Origin: Pseudomonas sp. M30-35
GTDB taxonomy: Bacteria; Pseudomonadota; Gammaproteobacteria; Pseudomonadales; Pseudomonadaceae
Assembly: GCF_002163625.1 (NCBI RefSeq)
Contig: NZ_CP020892.1
Coordinates: forward strand, 310,001-374,000
Length of the DNA: 64,000 nt
Reading direction: 5' to 3'
Part shown: positions 7,895 to 39,471 of the stretch, one piece after another
Position numbering within the stretch: position 1 is the first letter of the stretch
Layout: each line of letters begins with the position of its first letter
Program-made: the position numbers and the translations under genes
Notes under the pieces: generated by a model
The model's database searches: none
What the model was told of the DNA's origin: nothing
The model's input: only the letters and a program-made list of their open reading frames with translations

Positions 7895-8010
7895 AGGTGT
7901 GAGTCAATCTTAAACACCTGGCGCTGTCAAGAGAGGTGTATTTTGCCCCAAAAAGGTGCTGCATGGCCAATTTCAGGGCGTTTCGGGGCTTTTCAGTGAT
8001 CGTGAAAGCC
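7895..8010. promoter_or_regulatory. spuI-spuA divergent promoter region with repeats
   Basis: The 277-base gap between spuI and spuA contains an AGGTGT...ACACCT inverted pair (7895-7900 and 7914-7919), a further AGGTGT at about 7935, and a palindromic segment GGCTTT...AAAGCC at 7987-8010. These are candidate sites for a polyamine-responsive regulator such as PauR; no match to a known consensus was established. Confidence 0.4.
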
Positions 8011-8126
8011 TTTGCCTGTGCGGTGCTCAGTGGTGTGTGTTTAATTTTTTACATGGCTATTGTGAAAAAAAATGAACAAGGCTAAGCTCGGCTCAAACCC
8101 ACTAACAGCAATAAAACGGGTGTCCC

Positions 8127-33591: not shown

Positions 33592-33950
33592 ACAGGGGCG
33601 TGAATGACTGACTCTGGCTGGCTTCAGTTGCTCGTAATCGGCCGCTAGCGGCCCAGAGTGTGTAAAAACGCGTAGCTCAAATCGAAGTACGTGCGTCTGC
33701 GTGAAATCTAAAATTTGTTGCTATGTCAGCAAACCAAGATTTCGCATAGAAGCGCGATTTTCTGCGCAGCTGTGGGCGCCTAGTGTGCTCAAAAACGGTT
33801 TTACACAGCCAGGGCCAAAAGCGGCCCTTCACGACAGGCCGGGGTCGGCCAAGAGCGGACGTTTACGGATGATTTGAAGCCGTTTGGAAGCAAGGCACTA
33901 TTCAAGAGCCCCTTGCTCCCAGCTCCAAGATGAAACGGGTGAAGACTGAG
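33592..33950. other. Non-coding left flank of the integron, with transposon-end remnant
   Basis: No gene seen. It contains a 155-base element with facing TGTGTAAAA ends (33656-33810) and runs of GGCC-rich text (AGGGCCAAAAGCGGCCC at 33810-33826). The segment from 33951 downward replaces the missing part of the integrase gene. Confidence 0.6.
33656..33810. mobile_element. Degenerate element with terminal inverted repeats
   Basis: GAGTGTGTAAAAACGCG at 33656-33672 faces AAAACGGTTTTACACAGCC at 33792-33810; the shared end is TGTGTAAAA-CG. The interior is non-coding. It resembles the two ends of an insertion sequence brought together, or a MITE. Family not assigned. Confidence 0.55.
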
Positions 33951-34138
33951 GGCCAGCCAGGTAAGAAACTCGCTAACTTCCGCTGGCCCATCTCCAGAGG
34001 GTGACGCATCCGGTGGTAGCGCAGGAAATAGCGTATCCAGTACCAGTAGGTCTTCTCGGTGCGAATGCTGTAGTGATTCACCCTAATGACGTTACGAAAC
34101 TGTTCTCGCAGGCGTGGCTTGGCTGATGTGGTATCCAT
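33951..34138 (-). pseudogene. intI: Integron integrase intI, truncated and frameshifted
   Basis: N-terminal about 63 residues of an integron-type tyrosine recombinase. VNHYSIRTEKTYWYWIRYF and LRYHRMRHPLEMG match the SAM-like N-domain of IntI proteins. After MGQR the reading frame breaks near 33980: a one-base loss puts EVSEFLTWLA, the expected continuation, in the next frame. Beyond WLA (33951) nothing resembles an integrase in any frame, so the catalytic domain (Arg, His, Tyr) is gone. The open frame itself continues to 33902 with unrelated residues. Orientation opposite to the cassettes is the standard integron layout. Confidence 0.88.
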
Positions 34139-34150
34139 ATCGCATCAACG

Positions 34151-34166
34151 CTGTATGTTTGCACAG
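34151..34166 (-). promoter_or_regulatory. LexA-type SOS box upstream of intI
   Basis: CTGTATGTTTGCACAG fits CTG-N10-CAG and ends 12 bases before the intI start codon. SOS control by a LexA box in the integrase promoter is established for several integrons. Extended on the right by TA as in the longer LexA consensus. Confidence 0.75.
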
Positions 34167-34269
34167 TATTATTGGTTGCACAAAAAGAGGAGGCCAAGCG
34201 AATACAGGTTATATGCAACAGTAAGAAGATAACCAACTGTTTTATAAAGAGAATTTACGTATTGAATCG

Positions 34270-34343
34270 ATCGGGTGAGGTGTTGTTATGAAGAAGTCAC
34301 TAATATGCAATCATAAAGCCGTCGGTCCACTCAACTGTTAGAA
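34270..34343 (+). other. Putative attI recombination site
   Basis: The segment between the intI promoter and the first cassette ends in GTTAGAA (34337-34343), a good GTTRRRY core. By the integron rule the strand exchange lies after the G at 34337. The extent of the site to the left is an estimate. Confidence 0.6.
34288..34341 (+). CDS. 17-codon ORF in attI, stop on the core site
   Basis: ATG at 34288 has GAGGTG five bases upstream, an excellent ribosome site. It encodes MKKSLICNHKAVGPLNC and its TAG (34339-34341) is part of the GTTAG core at the attI/cassette junction. The first cassette gene begins 11 bases later. In class 1 integrons a short ORF within attI1 (ORF-11) raises translation of the first cassette; this looks like an independent equivalent. 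Too short for homology evidence, so the call rests on the ribosome site and position. Confidence 0.55.
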   Translation: MKKSLICNHKAVGPLNC

Positions 34344-34352
34344 GGAGGCACT

Positions 34353-34712
34353 ATGAAAACAACAGTCGACCTTGAGATTTTTAGCCCACGATGGGGCAAC
34401 GAAGATACGTATACGGTTCAGCTCAATCGGGATTTCATGGAAATAAAAATGTCCCCGAGAGTTTCGAGGGCCACATGGATAGAAAATCAAGATCCAGAAT
34501 GGAGCGGCGAATCCATTCAGGCAATTATGAATAATGACAATATTTACCCACCAAAAATCACGCAAGATCTTTTCGAGCACGTATGGAAAGAGTGGCGAAA
34601 CGGCGACATAAATGATCAACAAGCCGAGGCCGAACTTCAAGAAATTGCTAAATGGATCAACGCCGTTACTCGCGCGAAGCCAGATACAGAGTTCTGGAAT
34701 AAGTACTTCTAA
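34353..34712 (+). CDS. Cassette 1: hypothetical protein
   Basis: Protein of 119 residues, not recognised beyond its resemblance in style to other integron cassette proteins. It is acidic and Trp-rich (WGNEDTYTVQLNRDF, WIENQDPEW, EHVWKEWRNGDI), without signal peptide or membrane span, and ends FWNKYF. AAGGAGG precedes the ATG. The TAA stop is embedded in the attC inverse core TTCTAAC. As first cassette, it should be the best expressed of the array. Confidence 0.8.
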   Translation: MKTTVDLEIFSPRWGNEDTYTVQLNRDFMEIKMSPRVSRATWIENQDPEWSGESIQAIMNNDNIYPPKITQDLFEHVWKEWRNGDINDQQAEAELQEIAKWINAVTRAKPDTEFWNKYF

Positions 34713-34783
34713 CAAGTGGCTCAAATCGCTCGCTACGCTCACTGGGACGGGCTAAAGCCCGCCCCTTAGCTTAATCGTTAGGT
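34707..34783 (+). repeat. attC site 1
   Basis: 77 bases from TTCTAAC to GTTAGGT. Contains the internal stem GACGGGCTAAAGCCCGCC shared with other sites of the array. Type-A site of this array. Confidence 0.9.
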
Positions 34784-34795
34784 TGCAATGAAAGT

Positions 34796-35275
34796 ATGCA
34801 GATACTGACCTACAAAAGAACACATACTGGCGACCCCGACTCATCAGGTCGATTTGGCATCAATGACTGTATGGGCCGTATCCGCAATTGGAATTTTGAT
34901 GCTGTAATCGGTGTCGGTGGTTATGGCTCGGAACCTAGGAGCTATGGCATTGAGGGGCGTATAAATTGGGTCGGCCTTAATCCAACCCGTACGCCACATC
35001 CACAAGGTTACGGTCAAATCGTAACCTTTGAGTCGTTTGCATTGTTTGAAGAAAAGGGACCACTGCTTTCCGAACTAGCCCCGCTCATAGCACGTCGCAT
35101 GTACGAAAAACGGGCTCGCGTATTGTTCAAGTCATATTCTTCAATGGAAAAAGCCGAAGCAGAAGTTCTATTGCTATCTTTGCTAGGTAATAGCCAATCA
35201 ATAACCCCTACCGTCAAAGCGCGCCGTAAATGCCACAAGTTAAGAGCCGTAAAAAATTGCCGCGTTGCAACTTAA
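34796..35275 (+). CDS. Cassette 2: hypothetical protein
   Basis: Protein of 159 residues of unknown function. Gly-rich central part (VIGVGGYGSEPRSYGIEGR, INWVGLNPTR) and a charged C-terminal half (RRMYEKRARVLFKSYSSMEK). No signal peptide or membrane span. No good ribosome site; a seven-codon ORF starting at 34788 overlaps its start, which could give coupled translation. TAA lies in the ACTTAAC core. Confidence 0.75.
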   Translation: MQILTYKRTHTGDPDSSGRFGINDCMGRIRNWNFDAVIGVGGYGSEPRSYGIEGRINWVGLNPTRTPHPQGYGQIVTFESFALFEEKGPLLSELAPLIARRMYEKRARVLFKSYSSMEKAEAEVLLLSLLGNSQSITPTVKARRKCHKLRAVKNCRVAT

Positions 35276-35345
35276 CAAATGGTTCAAACCGTTCGCTTCG
35301 CTCACTGGGACGGGCTAAAGCCCGCCCCTTAACCAAACGCTAGGC
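35270..35345 (+). repeat. attC site 2
   Basis: 76 bases from ACTTAAC, a perfect RYYYAAC, to GCTAGGC, where the usual GTT is GCT. Type-A site, very close in sequence to attC 1. Confidence 0.88.
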
Positions 35346-35350
35346 GAAAA

Positions 35351-35842
35351 ATGAGCACCAAAGCCAAATTCGAGCTACATGCCCTAAATTTAGGAAAGCT
35401 GGTCGGCAATCTTTTGACAATCGAGATGGCAGCTAGAATGTTTCTAGCTAAGCACGACGAAGACTTTCAATCCAAGATCGCAACTCAGCTACCGCGAGTT
35501 TCGGAAGGGGATCTTGTCGAATCGGATGCGTTCACCAATGCTGACGACTTAAGGCAAACGCTGCAGAAGTACAACAAGCGTGCGCCCAATGCGTTGGCAG
35601 TTCCGATTGATGAGATTGTATCTCTTCGAGACGCGTTGGCGCACGGGCGGACATTCGGATTCGGAGAGATACAGCACCTGAGGCTACTTAAATTTAGCCG
35701 GAAAGCTGCCGAAGGAAAGCATCGTGTCGAGTTGGCGCAAGACATGAGCGAAACCTGGTTTGTGCACAACATCCGCGTGCTCGAATCCGCGTTACAGAGC
35801 CTCACGCAGGCGTTGGACTATGAGCAGCGCGAGTTTGACTAG
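35351..35842 (+). CDS. Cassette 3: putative HEPN-like protein
   Basis: Protein of 163 residues, largely alpha-helical by composition. SLRDALAHGRTFG contains Arg93-Asp-Ala-Leu-Ala-His98, an R-x4-H motif with a polar residue after the Arg, the signature of HEPN RNases and of HEPN-like antitoxin partners. An N-terminal helix region (LGKLVGNLLTIEMAARMF) and a C-terminal helix fit a HEPN bundle. If right, it may be a toxin or antiphage RNase. No antitoxin gene is visible in the cassette. The motif is short, so the assignment is tentative. It starts six bases after the core. Confidence 0.7.
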   Translation: MSTKAKFELHALNLGKLVGNLLTIEMAARMFLAKHDEDFQSKIATQLPRVSEGDLVESDAFTNADDLRQTLQKYNKRAPNALAVPIDEIVSLRDALAHGRTFGFGEIQHLRLLKFSRKAAEGKHRVELAQDMSETWFVHNIRVLESALQSLTQALDYEQREFD

Positions 35843-35848
35843 CCCGGC

Positions 35849-35932
35849 GCCTAACAAGGACAGGCACAGCGACGGCTTTTCCGTTGCGGCTTCGCCTCCA
35901 CTACAAAGCCGCGCGTGCTGGCGGCGTTAGGA
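35849..35932 (+). repeat. attC site 3 (divergent type)
   Basis: 84 bases from GCCTAAC to GTTAGGA. The body (CAAGGACAGGCACAGCGACGG ends aside) differs from the other sites; its arms pair as AAGGACAGGCACAGC against GCGTGCTGGCGGCG only partly. Indicates a cassette captured from another integron. Confidence 0.85.
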
Positions 35933-35941
35933 AAAACTGAA

Positions 35942-36415
35942 ATGCGCGGCTTCATTTACATTCTCCATTCAAATGAGCGCCCCGGCATTGTAAAAATCGG
36001 GAAAACCACCAAGTCACCCAAAATTAGATGCAATGAACACAATCGTGACTGGTATCTATCAATTAACTCTTGGGAAGTAAGATTCTGGCGATGGATCGAG
36101 AACTGCAATATCGCCGAAACTGAAATACACAAGCTATTCGTCAAGCACAATCTAGGCGCCAGAGGACATCGTGAAGCTTTCAGGGTCGACGTGAGAGTTG
36201 CTGAAGAGACAGCTATAAGAGTTTGCGATAAATACCCTGCGAAAGGTGACGAACCGACGGCGCCAATCTTGAGGAAAAAGAAAACCCTTGATCGAATTGC
36301 TTACGCCCACATTGCACGCAACGGAATGCTCACAGAAAAAATCATAGAATACAAAAAACTAATGTCAGAACTCGATTTCTACAAATGGCTTATGGAGATA
36401 AAAGAGTTACTGTAG
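35942..36415 (+). CDS. Cassette 4: T5orf172/GIY-YIG-like protein
   Basis: Protein of 157 residues. N-terminal GFIYILHSNERPGIVKIGKT, then RWIENCNIAETEIHKLF and REAFRVDV, match the order of elements in T5orf172 (GIY-YIG superfamily) domains: a beta-strand pair with Tyr, VKIGxT, an Arg-bearing helix, and the AE-x-H element. The C-terminal 60 residues are Lys-rich and helical. Possibly a DNA nuclease or nucleic-acid binder with a defensive role. The ATG at 35942 is 11 bases after the core; an upstream TTG start in frame would lie in attC 3. Confidence 0.75.
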   Translation: MRGFIYILHSNERPGIVKIGKTTKSPKIRCNEHNRDWYLSINSWEVRFWRWIENCNIAETEIHKLFVKHNLGARGHREAFRVDVRVAEETAIRVCDKYPAKGDEPTAPILRKKKTLDRIAYAHIARNGMLTEKIIEYKKLMSELDFYKWLMEIKELL

Positions 36416-36455
36416 AGCTCCTTCTAACCATCAGTCATTCAGCAGCCGCGCCTAT

Positions 36456-36532
36456 GCCTAACAAATGGTTCAAGTCGCTCGCTTCGCTCACTCGGGCCCG
36501 GCTAAAGCCGGCCCCTTAACCAAACGTTAGAA
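36456..36532 (+). repeat. attC site 4
   Basis: 77 bases from GCCTAAC to GTTAGAA, type A in its body (CAAATGGTTCAAGTCGCTCG). Forty bases of extra sequence with another TTCTAAC (36422-36428) lie between the cassette 4 gene and this site. Confidence 0.9.
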
Positions 36533-36536
36533 GCAC

Positions 36537-37025
36537 ATGAAATATTGCGCCAGCCTTAAAGAAAAAACAGACTTAGTTCACCACCAATTTTCCGAGCTGA
36601 TTGGCAAAGCAGTTGTAGGCTATGAGTTAGCGCAAATTTGGTGTGAGGAAACCGCCGCTTGGAGCGAGTGGAATGACCTTCCAGTATTTTTATCAATTGG
36701 TTCAGGTGAGCTTTCTATCTCATGGCAAAAGTTTGATGAGCTCGCTATAGAGGTTGATCGTGTTCTGCCTTTTTCACTTTGTGGGAGCACAGTGCGCTGG
36801 ATAGATAGCGGAAATATCCATCTTGACGCTGCTATTGGGCGTACCGTTGAGTCAGTTTCTTTAGCACAAGGAGCAATGACAGTGGGTGGCAGCGAAATAG
36901 AAATTTGGACGCGCTTACTAATTCATTTCACAGGCGGTGGTAGCTTGGATATTTTCAATGCGCTTGACGAAAACGGCTTTGAATTTCATACCAAGGCTGT
37001 AGAGGCCGGCGTATCGTGCTTCTAA
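36537..37025 (+). CDS. Cassette 5: hypothetical protein
   Basis: Protein of 162 residues, not recognised. Acidic, soluble, with IWCEETAAWSEWNDLPVFL and VRWIDSGNIHLDAAIGRTV; composition recalls immunity-type proteins but there is no diagnostic motif. Its ATG is only four bases after the cassette core GTTAGAA, so translation depends on bases of the upstream attC or is coupled. Stop TAA is inside the TTCTAAC core. Confidence 0.75.
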   Translation: MKYCASLKEKTDLVHHQFSELIGKAVVGYELAQIWCEETAAWSEWNDLPVFLSIGSGELSISWQKFDELAIEVDRVLPFSLCGSTVRWIDSGNIHLDAAIGRTVESVSLAQGAMTVGGSEIEIWTRLLIHFTGGGSLDIFNALDENGFEFHTKAVEAGVSCF

Positions 37026-37095
37026 CTAGTGGTTCAAATCGCTCACTTCGTTCGCTGGGACCGGCTAAAGCCGGTCCCTTAATCAAACGTTAGAG
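37020..37095 (+). repeat. attC site 5
   Basis: 76 bases from TTCTAAC to GTTAGAG, type A with compensated change in the inner stem (GGGACCGGCTAAAGCCGGTCCC). Confidence 0.9.
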
Positions 37096-37104
37096 ATCAC
37101 GGCA

Positions 37105-37554
37105 GTGGATGTGCTATCACACAAATTCCTGGTGAGACTAGGCACTGATACCGGAGCAACCACTGCGCAAGAGCGGTTATCGGTTGATTTCCTCATTAAC
37201 GGCACATCTCTACTTACAAATATCGTAAAAATTGATGGCGGTCACGATGACTTTATAGGTTGCTTAGTACGCGGTTTCCCGAAGCAAAACGTTCAAGCAG
37301 TGGAGCGGCTCACGTGTGTGACATCTCCAGACTCAGAGTCAGGAAGAGTCCTTTTATACGTTTGTCCAGAGTGCGGGGATATTGGTTGCGGTGCTTACAG
37401 TGCTTTCGTTGAGCGTGCTGGCGGCACCTACGCTTGGCGAGACTTTGCATATGAAAATGGCTATGAAGATCCAAGGCCAATTTCAGGTGTTGGCCCATAT
37501 ACATTCGAAATTAAGCAATATGAGGTAGAGCTATATCGTGCAGGTGCCCTCTAA
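37105..37554 (+). CDS. Cassette 6: hypothetical protein with CPECGDIGC motif
   Basis: Protein of 149 residues with GTG start at 37105. Cys87-x2-Cys90-x4-Cys95 in YVCPECGDIGCGAYSAFVE looks like a metal-binding or structural knuckle in a beta-rich fold, followed by WRDFAYENGYED and GPYTFEIKQYEVEL. Proteins of this style occur as small hypothetical proteins in many bacteria; function unknown to me. Stop TAA is inside the attC core. Confidence 0.75.
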   Translation: MDVLSHKFLVRLGTDTGATTAQERLSVDFLINGTSLLTNIVKIDGGHDDFIGCLVRGFPKQNVQAVERLTCVTSPDSESGRVLLYVCPECGDIGCGAYSAFVERAGGTYAWRDFAYENGYEDPRPISGVGPYTFEIKQYEVELYRAGAL

Positions 37555-37624
37555 CAATGCGCTCAAAGCGCTCTCTTCGTTCGCAGGGACCGGCGAAGCC
37601 GGCCCCTTAGCTTAATCGTTAGCC
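37549..37624 (+). repeat. attC site 6
   Basis: 76 bases from CTCTAAC to GTTAGCC; type A with a variant outer arm (CAATGCGCTCAAAGCGCTCTC) and inner stem GGGACCGGCGAAGCCGGCCCC. Confidence 0.9.
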
Positions 37625-37638
37625 AGTAGGGGCATTCT

Positions 37639-38196
37639 GTGAAATCGGTCGAGACGCCGCTAGGAAGTATCAAATTTGAAGTAGTGGTGCATGGCAGGGC
37701 GCAAATGCGGATACTAGAGCTGCCGTGTACTCTTCAAAACGACATGACGCTTGAGCGGGTCGTTGCATGCGTGCTGATTGTAGAGCCAAGTATCGACGGC
37801 GCTGACCTTACTTTCTCAGCGCAGCTTGATAATGAAAGCCAGACTGGATCTCCTGAGTCTGGCGAGTTTCTCGACTGTGTGTCGTGGGAGGCTTCTGGCT
37901 GGGCTCTATCGCTAGGAACTGAAGATGGCGACGCTCTTTCTCAAAGGCTGAAGTGCCTGAATATCGAATCAAGTCCATATCCGATATCTTACTCCCGGTC
38001 GGGCCTAGAACTCCTCTTAACGGAACTAGAAAGAGGGAAAGCTTTGTCATTTCATTTCATCGTCGCATATAAGAGTCTCCCGGATGATCGGGAGTGTTCC
38101 ACCTGGTTTGCGGTCGATGTTCCGCATGAGGTGGCTAACAAGGCATGCACGCGACAAGCGCGTGATGGCAGCGTTAAATGGCATGGTGAAGCGTGA
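37639..38196 (+). CDS. Cassette 7: hypothetical protein reading through its attC
   Basis: Protein of 185 residues with GTG start at 37639. Acidic, soluble, unrecognised (LPCTLQNDMTLERVVACVLI, FLDCVSWEASGWALSLGTED). The last about 21 codons are the attC 7 site and the six codons beyond, so the C-terminus (NKACTRQARDGSVKWHGEA) is recombination-site sequence. That hints that the original stop was lost or that the gene was joined to a partial attC. Confidence 0.7.
   Translation: MKSVETPLGSIKFEVVVHGRAQMRILELPCTLQNDMTLERVVACVLIVEPSIDGADLTFSAQLDNESQTGSPESGEFLDCVSWEASGWALSLGTEDGDALSQRLKCLNIESSPYPISYSRSGLELLLTELERGKALSFHFIVAYKSLPDDRECSTWFAVDVPHEVANKACTRQARDGSVKWHGEA
38133..38179 (+). repeat. attC site 7 (short, terminal)
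   Basis: 47 bases from GGCTAAC to GTTAAAT with CACGCG/CGCGTG arms. Shorter than the others and of a different type; it ends the array and lies within the cassette 7 reading frame. Confidence 0.7.
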
Positions 38197-38475
38197 ATCG
38201 TCATTGGTGCCGTAGTCACTAGATGACCGCTTTTATCCGGCTGGAGTCATTGGCGACTGGCGGCTATGGGTCGAACCTGTGCTGCTGTAAAGGTCGTCCG
38301 CATACGATGAGGTGCAAAGGGCAGGGCAGTCAGGAGTTCAGCGTTCGCCACTGGCATCGCTTTTTTCGGTACTTTCTTTAGTACTCTGCTCCGTCAGATC
38401 TGCCTTGGTGGGCCAACTGTGCAGCACTTCAGGTGCCAGGAGAGTTGTCATTGCTGACTCTGATTTTTCGGGATC

Positions 38476-38499
38476 ATCTTTTGATAAAAATCAAAAGAT
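38476..38499 (-). terminator. Hairpin downstream of the kinase gene
   Basis: ATCTTTTGAT AAAA ATCAAAAGAT, 10-bp stem. On the minus strand it reads out of the kinase operon and carries an internal T-run; a likely operon end. Confidence 0.65.
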
Positions 38500-38531
38500 C
38501 GCAGCCTTCGGCAGCGCCTACAGATCGATCG
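38497..38531 (-). repeat. Pseudomonas REP element
   Basis: GATCGCAGCCTTCGGCAGCG followed by CCTACAG matches the common REP of the P. fluorescens/P. putida groups. Single copy seen in this window, at the edge of the transporter-kinase cluster. Confidence 0.75.
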
Positions 38532-38535
38532 TATT

Positions 38536-39471
38536 TCAATCTTTTGGAATGAGTGCTCCAGGCACTTGAATCACTCGGCTCGCCAAACGATGTCCCGCTT
38601 CTGCCGCCTCAGCCGGGCTGCCTCCCTTGAGCCGGTTGGCCAAATACGCCGCACTGAACGAGTCCCCTGCCGCCGTGGTGTCCACCACGCATTCGACCAC
38701 CTGCGCCGGGACTTCGAACGACTCTCCATTACAACGAATCAGACATGCTTCAGCGCCACGCTTGAGCACTACTTCGGGCGTGCCAATCTGCTCATAAGCG
38801 GCAAACACCGCCGCACAATCGGAAAAGCTGAACAGCGCTTGCTCGTCCTCAACCGTCAACAACGCTAGGTCGACATAGGGCAGAACGCTGCGATAGGCCG
38901 CTTGCGCTTCCTCGGTCGAGGCCCATAACCGTGGCCGGTAGTTGTTGTCGAAAACGATCCGCGCATCCCGCTGTCGCGCTTCGATCAGGATTTCTAGAAG
39001 TTTTTCCCGTCCTTGTACGCCGAGCACCGCGAGCGTGATGCCGCTGAAATACAACACGTCGTAATCTGGCAACGCCGCCAGAACTGGCGCGGCGGCTGGG
39101 GTGGTGAAGCAATCGCGGACTGCCGCTTCGTTACGCCAGTAGAGAAAACGCCGCTCGCCGGCAGCATCGGTCTGGATGCAATACAGGCCGGGCAAGCGAC
39201 CGGGTAAACGCTGGACCATTTCCAGGCCAATGCCTTCATCGGCCCAGCTCTGGCACATTGCATCGCTGAAACTGTCATCGCCCAGGGCAGTTATGTAATC
39301 CACCGCACCACTATCGCCTAGCTCACGGGTTAGGTAGACCGCAGTGTTCAGGGTATCGCCACCGAAGCTTTGTTGCAGGCTACCGTCGGCGCGCTGCTGC
39401 AATTCGATCATGCATTCGCCGATCAGGGCGATGCGCTGGATGTTGGGGCCTAGGGTGCTGAAGGTGTTCAT
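38536..39471 (-). CDS. kdgK: 2-dehydro-3-deoxygluconokinase-like PfkB sugar kinase
   Basis: PfkB/ribokinase-family kinase of 311 residues. N-terminal IALIGECMIELQQ and FGGDTLNTAVYLTREL are typical of KDG kinases; C-terminal VDTTAAGDSFSAAYLANRL holds the catalytic Asp and anion hole. It would phosphorylate 2-keto-3-deoxygluconate to KDPG for the Entner-Doudoroff aldolase. Last gene of the minus-strand cluster, 54 bases after the PLP lyase gene, consistent with KDG being the lyase product. Confidence 0.88.
   Translation of the reverse strand: MNTFSTLGPNIQRIALIGECMIELQQRADGSLQQSFGGDTLNTAVYLTRELGDSGAVDYITALGDDSFSDAMCQSWADEGIGLEMVQRLPGRLPGLYCIQTDAAGERRFLYWRNEAAVRDCFTTPAAAPVLAALPDYDVLYFSGITLAVLGVQGREKLLEILIEARQRDARIVFDNNYRPRLWASTEEAQAAYRSVLPYVDLALLTVEDEQALFSFSDCAAVFAAYEQIGTPEVVLKRGAEACLIRCNGESFEVPAQVVECVVDTTAAGDSFSAAYLANRLKGGSPAEAAEAGHRLASRVIQVPGALIPKD

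Follow-up and report, generated by a model that had tools for sequence, protein, structure and literature searches.

Can an integron go on exchanging gene cassettes after its own integrase gene has been lost? The question is raised by a locus of Pseudomonas sp. M30-35 that lies in the 64,000 nucleotides analysed here (the window; positions 310001–374000 of the single-contig genome of 4,926,954 bases). At 34342–38179 the window contains an integron cassette array of seven cassettes with one open reading frame (ORF) each, preceded by the attachment site attI and by a 5′ remnant of the integrase gene intI. The locus is a genuine integron for gene capture, with most of its own integrase gene deleted: attI stands beside the first cassette and the attC array is present, an intact intI in cis is not. 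The array also falls under the definition of a cluster of attC sites lacking an integrase gene (CALIN), namely two or more attC sites with no integrase gene nearby, the intI remnant being present here. An earlier note on this DNA had described a seven-cassette integron remnant, and seven ORFs with seven attC-like sites are indeed found within 34342–38196.

In the usual picture an integron consists of a single integrase, a single attI and a single array. Beyond what the earlier note had seen, this genome carries a twin of the intI–attI platform and a third array, and related genomes carry attI sites without intI. We consider it likely that the locus is an integrase-less attI platform, a satellite loaded in trans by an integrase (IntI) made elsewhere, and that the window is a derived case of such platforms. 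This makes the locus more interesting than a lone remnant; the service in trans is a mechanism that we infer.

The truncated integrase gene and its attI site

The intI remnant occupies 33946–34138 on the minus strand and retains codons 1 to about 63, compared with 321 codons in IntI of relatives; the rest is deleted, and there is a frameshift near the remnant's end. The opposite-strand frame 33962–34138 matches the N-terminus of integron integrases (PRK15417, E 1.7e-11; TIGR02249, E 1.1e-9), both matches being far below the curated whole-protein cut-offs. A scan of the 63-residue remnant against named genomes gave 106 confirmed relatives, and among the 80 of these 106 that were used further, the closest are Halopseudomonas aestusnigri (97%), UBA836, H. 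oceani and P. neustonica. An open intI frame of 315–321 aa is present in 20 of the 31 loci from this set that were translated.

By the deletion the remnant is joined directly to the left flank of the integron unit (33846–33945, + strand, starting with CGGCCAAGAGCGG). In H. oceani, whose intI is itself interrupted, the same flank DNA sits about 170 bp past the 3′ end of intI. Thus, the loss of intI in the window is one internal deletion with GAC at the joint. The earlier description of a degraded intI holds as far as the remnant is concerned, and the degradation is better described as this one deletion, which is common to both copies of the platform. The window platform would therefore derive from a Halopseudomonas-type integron by one deletion inside intI.

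In the putative promoter region of intI a LexA-box-like sequence, CTGTATGTTTGCACAG, has been retained together with the remnant (34151–34166, no strand assigned); it is the only mismatch-free match to CTGTATN6ACAG in the window. The attI site follows at 34273–34341 on the + strand, ends in the core CTGTTAG and scores E 2e-22 with a 17-site profile that includes the window attI, in agreement with the attI-like segment which had been placed between intI and the array.

A twin platform with other cassettes in the same genome

A second platform is located at 4.87 Mb of the genome (locus L015). Over 497 bp, which run from the left flank across the deletion and up to the attI core, it is 94% identical to the window; the homology stops at the core, and the resemblance resumes after the last attC site with 63 bp at 86%. 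The twin has the same internal intI deletion and the same flanks as the window and no cassette in common with it. The arrangement in H. oceani, with this flank past the 3′ end of intI, implies that one internal deletion is common to the two copies. That the two copies part precisely at the attI core and have different first cassettes would require an integrase to have acted after the deletion, unless the deleted segment was moved by gene conversion. A RecA-type deletion between attC sites should be unable to change the first cassette. The simplest history would be that the platform multiplied, or was acquired twice, after the intI deletion. An IntI from elsewhere, acting in trans and since lost or never resident, would then have added and excised cassettes at the two attI sites.

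An intact intI was not found in the genome. The integron-integrase family gave 12 matches, none above the curated cut-off, which comprise two N-terminal remnants and other tyrosine-recombinase frames or fragments that we have taken for Xer- and phage-type. A complete IntI of Halopseudomonas type, used as query, matched nothing but the two remnants at E ≤ 1e-15. Because no intact intI was found, the window array is probably frozen today.

The third array (L026:8040–11600, genome 4.068–4.072 Mb) adjoins selC (tRNA-Sec) and has three sites of the attC covariance model R1 described below and a degenerate one (E 0.029); no attI was found there with the attI profile R2. Comparison of 13 cassette proteins, 7, 3 and 3 from the respective arrays (one further ORF beside the degenerate site was left out), gave no mutual similarity at E ≤ 1e-3. 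By eye, the stretch near position 11580 of L026 repeats the 5′ part of the selC tRNA, which resembles the mark of islands integrating at selC.

The earlier note had proposed a comparison with close Pseudomonas genomes, and had named as refuting its reading a locus identical in distant species together with an attC covariance model that gives no matches. Among 298 sampled genomes of the genus, 16 show some match to the 496-bp platform, and only this genome has it at full length. The truncated platform is rare among the sampled genomes; near relatives outside the sample may carry one.

attI sites without integrase gene in related genomes

Profile R2 (17 sites) was run on 22 genomes, 16 of them Halopseudomonas-type (G334–G349). 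As judged by sequence comparison, attI together with its upstream region recurs without intI within one genome, in part at orthologous positions, both in Halopseudomonas-type genomes and in the P. mendocina group. In 12 of the 16 Halopseudomonas-type genomes there are 18 attI sites with no adjoining intI (none counted in G337, G338, G342 and G346). With R2, ten of them reach E values from 6e-22 to 7e-8; eight of these ten are themselves members of R2 and were first found by a blastn-type search with platform DNA. Two IntI queries gave no match at E ≤ 1e-3 in any of the 18 loci (224 kb; flank length varies from side to side, and a contig end is near two of the sites).

The sites without intI resemble the intI-linked attI of the same genome at 75–95% over 60 bp (12 pairs from 9 genomes), compared with 35–52% in controls apart from two that are spoilt by N. 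A block 120–180 bp upstream of attI is shared at 46–74%, the stretch between at 44–65%. These values bear on the proposal that arrays without intI are CALINs that arose by off-target insertion of cassettes, the attI-like sequence being no more than an attractive native target. Off-target insertion is among three published proposals for the origin of CALINs, the others being loss of intI and rearrangement (PMC8618304). A 60-bp attI at 75–95% plus an upstream block is far more than a core, and non-orthologous sites without intI have mostly about 50–240 bp in common beside the core (353 bp in one pair). We therefore hold off-target insertion to be very improbable for these sites.

A cognate IntI of intact length is encoded in seven of the 12 genomes with intI-less sites (G335, G339, G341, G343, G344, G347 and G348). 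Upstream, 13 of the 15 platforms that have intI or its remnant carry a LexA-box-like sequence (at most one mismatch), compared with 1 of the 18 that lack intI, as expected if only the integrase needs LexA control. Loss of LexA control is reported to be linked with integrase inactivation (PMC3108266).

With a simple attC finder 30 attC-like sites were detected in about 79 kb downstream of 17 intI-less sites, compared with 2 in about 44 kb upstream, and 13 of the 17 have at least one downstream. The finder detects three of the seven window sites and misses four; in the rest of the window it gives 3 matches in about 58 kb on both strands. A stricter first version, which detects one of the seven window sites, gave 14 downstream of 17 platforms and none upstream; the finder was loosened after this result was known, and the looser counts are those given above.

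At seven of the intI-less loci (L268, L271, L269, L267, L275, L277 and L280) the motif GGGCGGTAGCGTG is seen by eye about 200 bp upstream of attI. It is hairpin-like in some of them and may mark the left end of the satellite module.

The array boundary at orthologous sites

By comparing 2.6 kb of upstream regions, four orthologous sets of sites without intI could be recognised: G334b/G335a/G340a, G335b/G340b/G341a, G344a/G345/G347b/G349 and G347a/G348. The match of G341a in the second set is fragmented, and G336a shares displaced pieces with the first set.

In the P. mendocina group the intI–attI spacer of P. alcaliphila was used as query in 17 genomes, 11 of them assigned to this group. In 8 of the 11, eight matches to the spacer have no IntI match in about 1.5 kb per side; this count covers a part of the matches given by the search, and one of the eight (L308) is weak and split. 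Three of the eight sites are orthologous, with 92–94% identity over about 1.65 kb, and their alignments end 0–1 bp past GTTA.

Taken over both groups, the uncut alignments of all 14 orthologous pairs (11 Halopseudomonas-type and three from the P. mendocina group) stop 0–2 bp past the attI core GTTA. G340b is excluded, as its contig ends 10 bp past the core, and two of the 14 alignments are short pieces (G334b–G340a, 59 bp; G335b–G341a, 67 bp). Identity in the 14 pairs is 82–100% over the 60 bp before GTTA and 42–54% over the 60 bp after it, which in the same measure is the level of unrelated DNA. Farther downstream the orthologous sites share short attC-like matches only. Synteny resumes in two pairs: 3740 and 3015 bp farther on at G335a and G340a, and 6348 and 4855 bp farther on at G347a and G348. 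For the other orthologous sets no resumption was seen within the stretches compared.

Judging from these alignments, the gene content of integrase-less capture sites differs between species. The occurrence of several such sites with species-differing content suggests that one integrase can serve separate docking sites. In Halopseudomonas-type genomes and in the P. mendocina group the service of several attI sites by one integrase appears to be established: at conserved chromosomal positions these genomes have intI-less attI sites, which carry species-specific cassettes.

Several points weigh against service in trans. In M30-35 itself it is deduced from two copies, and two homologous copies in one genome can recombine. 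Eight of the 18 intI-less sites in Halopseudomonas-type genomes (group 2) score weakly, at E 5e-5 to 0.13, with the profile of group 1; their acceptance is based on alignments, and further weak or partial R2 matches were excluded from the count. Cognate intI is broken in 5 of the 12 genomes with such sites (G334, G336, G340, G345 and G349), so that a resident supply in trans would lie in the past there. Two of the 15 platforms with intI or a remnant have no LexA box, and one site without intI has one. Finally, 4 of the 17 intI-less sites have no attC-like site downstream, two of these with less than 2 kb of sequence. As to G345, a 4.3-kb contig of this genome carries an open IntI-like frame of 309 aa (L249, G345:C2:6-881) that is 47% identical to the Halopseudomonas-type IntI.

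A rival to service in trans is ordinary decay: two related integrons with intact intI would have been acquired separately, and the truncated intI–attI segment would have been copied from one to the other by gene conversion, with no action in trans in this genome. Breakage of intI is frequent: cognate intI is broken in 7 of the 16 Halopseudomonas-type genomes (one of them G345), and 43% of 1,135 integrases were predicted to be inactive (PMC3108266). Yet the two platform segments of M30-35 differ by about 6%, and none of four stretches is identical (97, 93, 88 and 88%), so any conversion must be old. Moreover, decay leaves unexplained why other species have intI-less sites that are orthologous and differ in their cassettes. 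On balance we regard decay with gene conversion as unlikely.

Relation to known systems

Platforms served in trans would resemble CALINs in being attC arrays with no adjoining integrase gene. They differ in that attC alone defines a CALIN, whereas the arrays described here are attached to an attI whose upstream block is conserved. A functional IntI is reported to be able to mobilise CALINs in trans (PMC12444791). In Xanthomonas they occur at seven distinct chromosomal loci away from ilvD/intI, and the account of them in the same source mentions no attI. The likeness lies in integrase-less arrays at recurring positions with intI, where kept, elsewhere; the difference lies in the presence of attI and the array boundary at its core. 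The attC family is shared with the chromosomal integrons of Pseudomonas, among them loci of P. borbori, P. benzenivorans, S. urumqiensis and others that have an open intI of 321 aa; in this known type intI, attI and array lie at one place. The attI-type cassettes reported from mobile integrons appear to be a different matter (PMC12901181). Among the matches listed from titles and abstract starts of open-licence literature we found no description of several integrase-less attI platforms on one chromosome, which is weak evidence of novelty.

We lean towards a more general view, in which the chromosomal integrons of Pseudomonadaceae are distributed systems: one SOS-controlled integrase gene would serve a number of integrase-less attI platforms, whose positions are fixed and vertically inherited and each of which loads and expresses an array of its own. 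The platforms could outlive the integrase, multiply and be reloaded in trans as here. If this is true, a chromosome with several such attI platforms would offer more first-position slots, in which cassettes are best expressed, and the use of cassettes would become separate from the control of the integrase. For some of the CALINs this would supply a definite origin, open to testing with a site profile. Software restricted to attC and intI would class such platforms as debris.

Ends of the integron unit

A different way in which the truncated platform could have multiplied is suggested by its ends. The right flank common to the twin (38172–38239, + strand) ends in the inverted left-end motif with 3 mismatches, and a hand-composed end motif, CGRCCAAKAGCGGWCRTYTA, is found inverted at both ends of both units with 0, 0, 0 and 3 mismatches. 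The unit might thus be a non-autonomous mobile element, i.e., a truncated integron bounded by inverted repeats and multiplied by a transposase in trans. Integron mobilisation units and integrons bounded by miniature inverted-repeat transposable elements (MITEs) have short inverted repeats at their ends and no transposase of their own, and the unit may resemble them in both respects. Elsewhere in the genome the best matches to CGRCCAAKAGCGGWCRTYTA have 3 mismatches (7 of them, compared with 15 in a backward control). By eye, the ends of the twin resemble inverted repeats further outward, and the same left end occurs with another flank in H. oceani. However, the motif was composed from the unit ends themselves, so the exact matches follow from its construction, and the right end of the window unit is at background level. 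No target-site duplication was noticed by eye in the flanks, and the repeats are unmatched to a known element, in which the unit differs from integron mobilisation units. Repeats of the AGCGGAC type are also common between genes in gammaproteobacteria. Mobilisation as such an element is possible, and we do not favour it.

The cassette array

All seven cassette ORFs are on the + strand and each is followed by an attC site, that of cassette 7 being overlapped by the ORF. Five sites are near-identical and two are divergent, the last one weak. The sites have TAAC and GTTA-type cores, the right core of attC2 being GCTAG. The covariance model R1 was built from attC1 (34705–34783, 93.4 bits), attC2 (35268–35345, 94.5 bits), attC4 (36454–36532, 95.2 bits), attC5 (37018–37095, 96.3 bits) and attC6 (37547–37624, 83.9 bits), all coordinates being given for the minus strand, as the bottom strand is the one modelled. 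The structure was written by hand after the known anatomy of attC sites, with R′, L′, L″ and R″ and one unpaired G.

R1 scores its five source sites at E 5e-23 to 1e-19 in 130 kb, a match by construction, and independently of these it finds five further strong sites at two other places of the genome. The 10 strong matches in the whole genome range from E 2e-21 to 2e-17, the next match being at E 0.0065. The covariance check proposed in the earlier note has thus given strong matches in the window and elsewhere in the genome. In 25 loci of relatives there are 66 matches at E ≤ 0.01 (1e-23 to 0.0076), mostly together with an open 321-aa intI; the claim that the sites are of the type resident in Pseudomonas is supported.

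The other two sites were recognised by their cores and folding. attC3 (35848–35932, minus strand) has 85 nt and is of another type; its bottom strand folds with paired ends (z −1.9). attC7 (38132–38182, minus strand), the right end of the array, has only 51 nt (z −1.3) and is not listed by R1 in the 130-kb search; 37–43 of its bases recur at 83–91% in four loci of relatives (5 matches). It is the weakest part of the array claim. For the seven bottom strands z lies between −1.3 and −5.0, so folding alone is no proof of each attC site.

Two candidate functions of the platform were considered and are not claimed. In alignment A3 all 17 group-1 attI sites have a 17-codon frame opened by ATG (about 34288 to 34341 in the window), which at the core stops in 12 and reads on (TAT) in 5; as a coding leader it was rejected, since substitutions are evenly spread over the codon positions (33, 30 and 29). 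For a cassette promoter a sigma-70 scan gave one minus-strand site with 0.7 expected. Another Pseudomonas (locus L266, G041 C9 around 59.4–59.8 kb) keeps IntI residues 65–169 and a degenerate attI core CTGTAAG, and its path of decay differs from that of the window.

Cassette products

Cassette 1 (34353–34712) encodes an integron cassette protein of M1E1E6-like type (Pfam PF21648); the structure of a relative, 3fy6, has been solved. Cassette 4 (35942–36415) codes for a T5orf172 domain, through which the candidate family PDC-S57 of PADLOC matches (E 9e-10). Five of the seven products have no family at E ≤ 0.01 in Pfam, NCBIfam and PHROGs. The products of cassettes 2 (34796–35275), 5 (36537–37025) and 7 (37639–38196) have none at E ≤ 0.01 when PADLOC is included, and those of cassettes 2 and 5 none at E ≤ 1 either. 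In the loci of relatives none of the window cassettes was found at E ≤ 1e-10.

The 163-aa product of cassette 3 (35351–35842) has 132 relatives at E ≤ 0.001 including its own entry, many of them on short contigs. R93, D94 and H98 are invariant in all 47 sequences aligned (47 of the 120 matches listed, own entry included). HEPN RNases have the motif R-x4-6-H, with which the R-x4-H of cassette 3 agrees. The predicted model is confident (pLDDT 90.6), and its comparison with the PDB gave no convincing fold relative. A HEPN toxin was therefore considered as a candidate and is not claimed, the motif being present and the predicted fold giving it no support. For cassette 6 (37105–37554) 163 relatives were found at E ≤ 0.001; its motif CPECGDIGCG is conserved, with C90 and C95 invariant in an alignment of the query with 39 of the 120 matches listed.

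It had been suggested that the cassettes are a store of phage-defence and toxin genes, kept by selection. Phage-defence systems borne by integrons have been reported for Vibrio, and the family match of cassette 4 and the invariant R-x4-H of cassette 3 would fit. In PADLOC, though, only cassette 4 has a significant match, the other six having none (cassette 7, E 0.019; five with no match at E ≤ 1), and neither the five products without family nor the fold of cassette 3 lends weight to this idea. A defence store thus seems improbable, and a role of the cassettes in phage defence is only a lead.

Flanking features of the window

Just left of the integron unit, at 33632–33834, two inverted arms of 39 bases, 74% complementary and 125 nt apart, form a MITE-like structure. 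To the right, at 38476–38546, there is a short repeat similar to repetitive extragenic palindromic elements, which has many matches of 30–60 bp in both orientations in the genomes of relatives. The repeat lies between the integron and a gene that we take to encode a PfkB-type kinase. A search of relatives with the right-flank gene gave matches in 41 of 95 genomes; this indicates that conserved synteny begins near 38483, and nothing more. At gathering thresholds Rfam lists no attC-type family in the window, and its sole match there is the Pseudomonas sRNA P1 (RF00623) at 7943–8123 with 123 bits.

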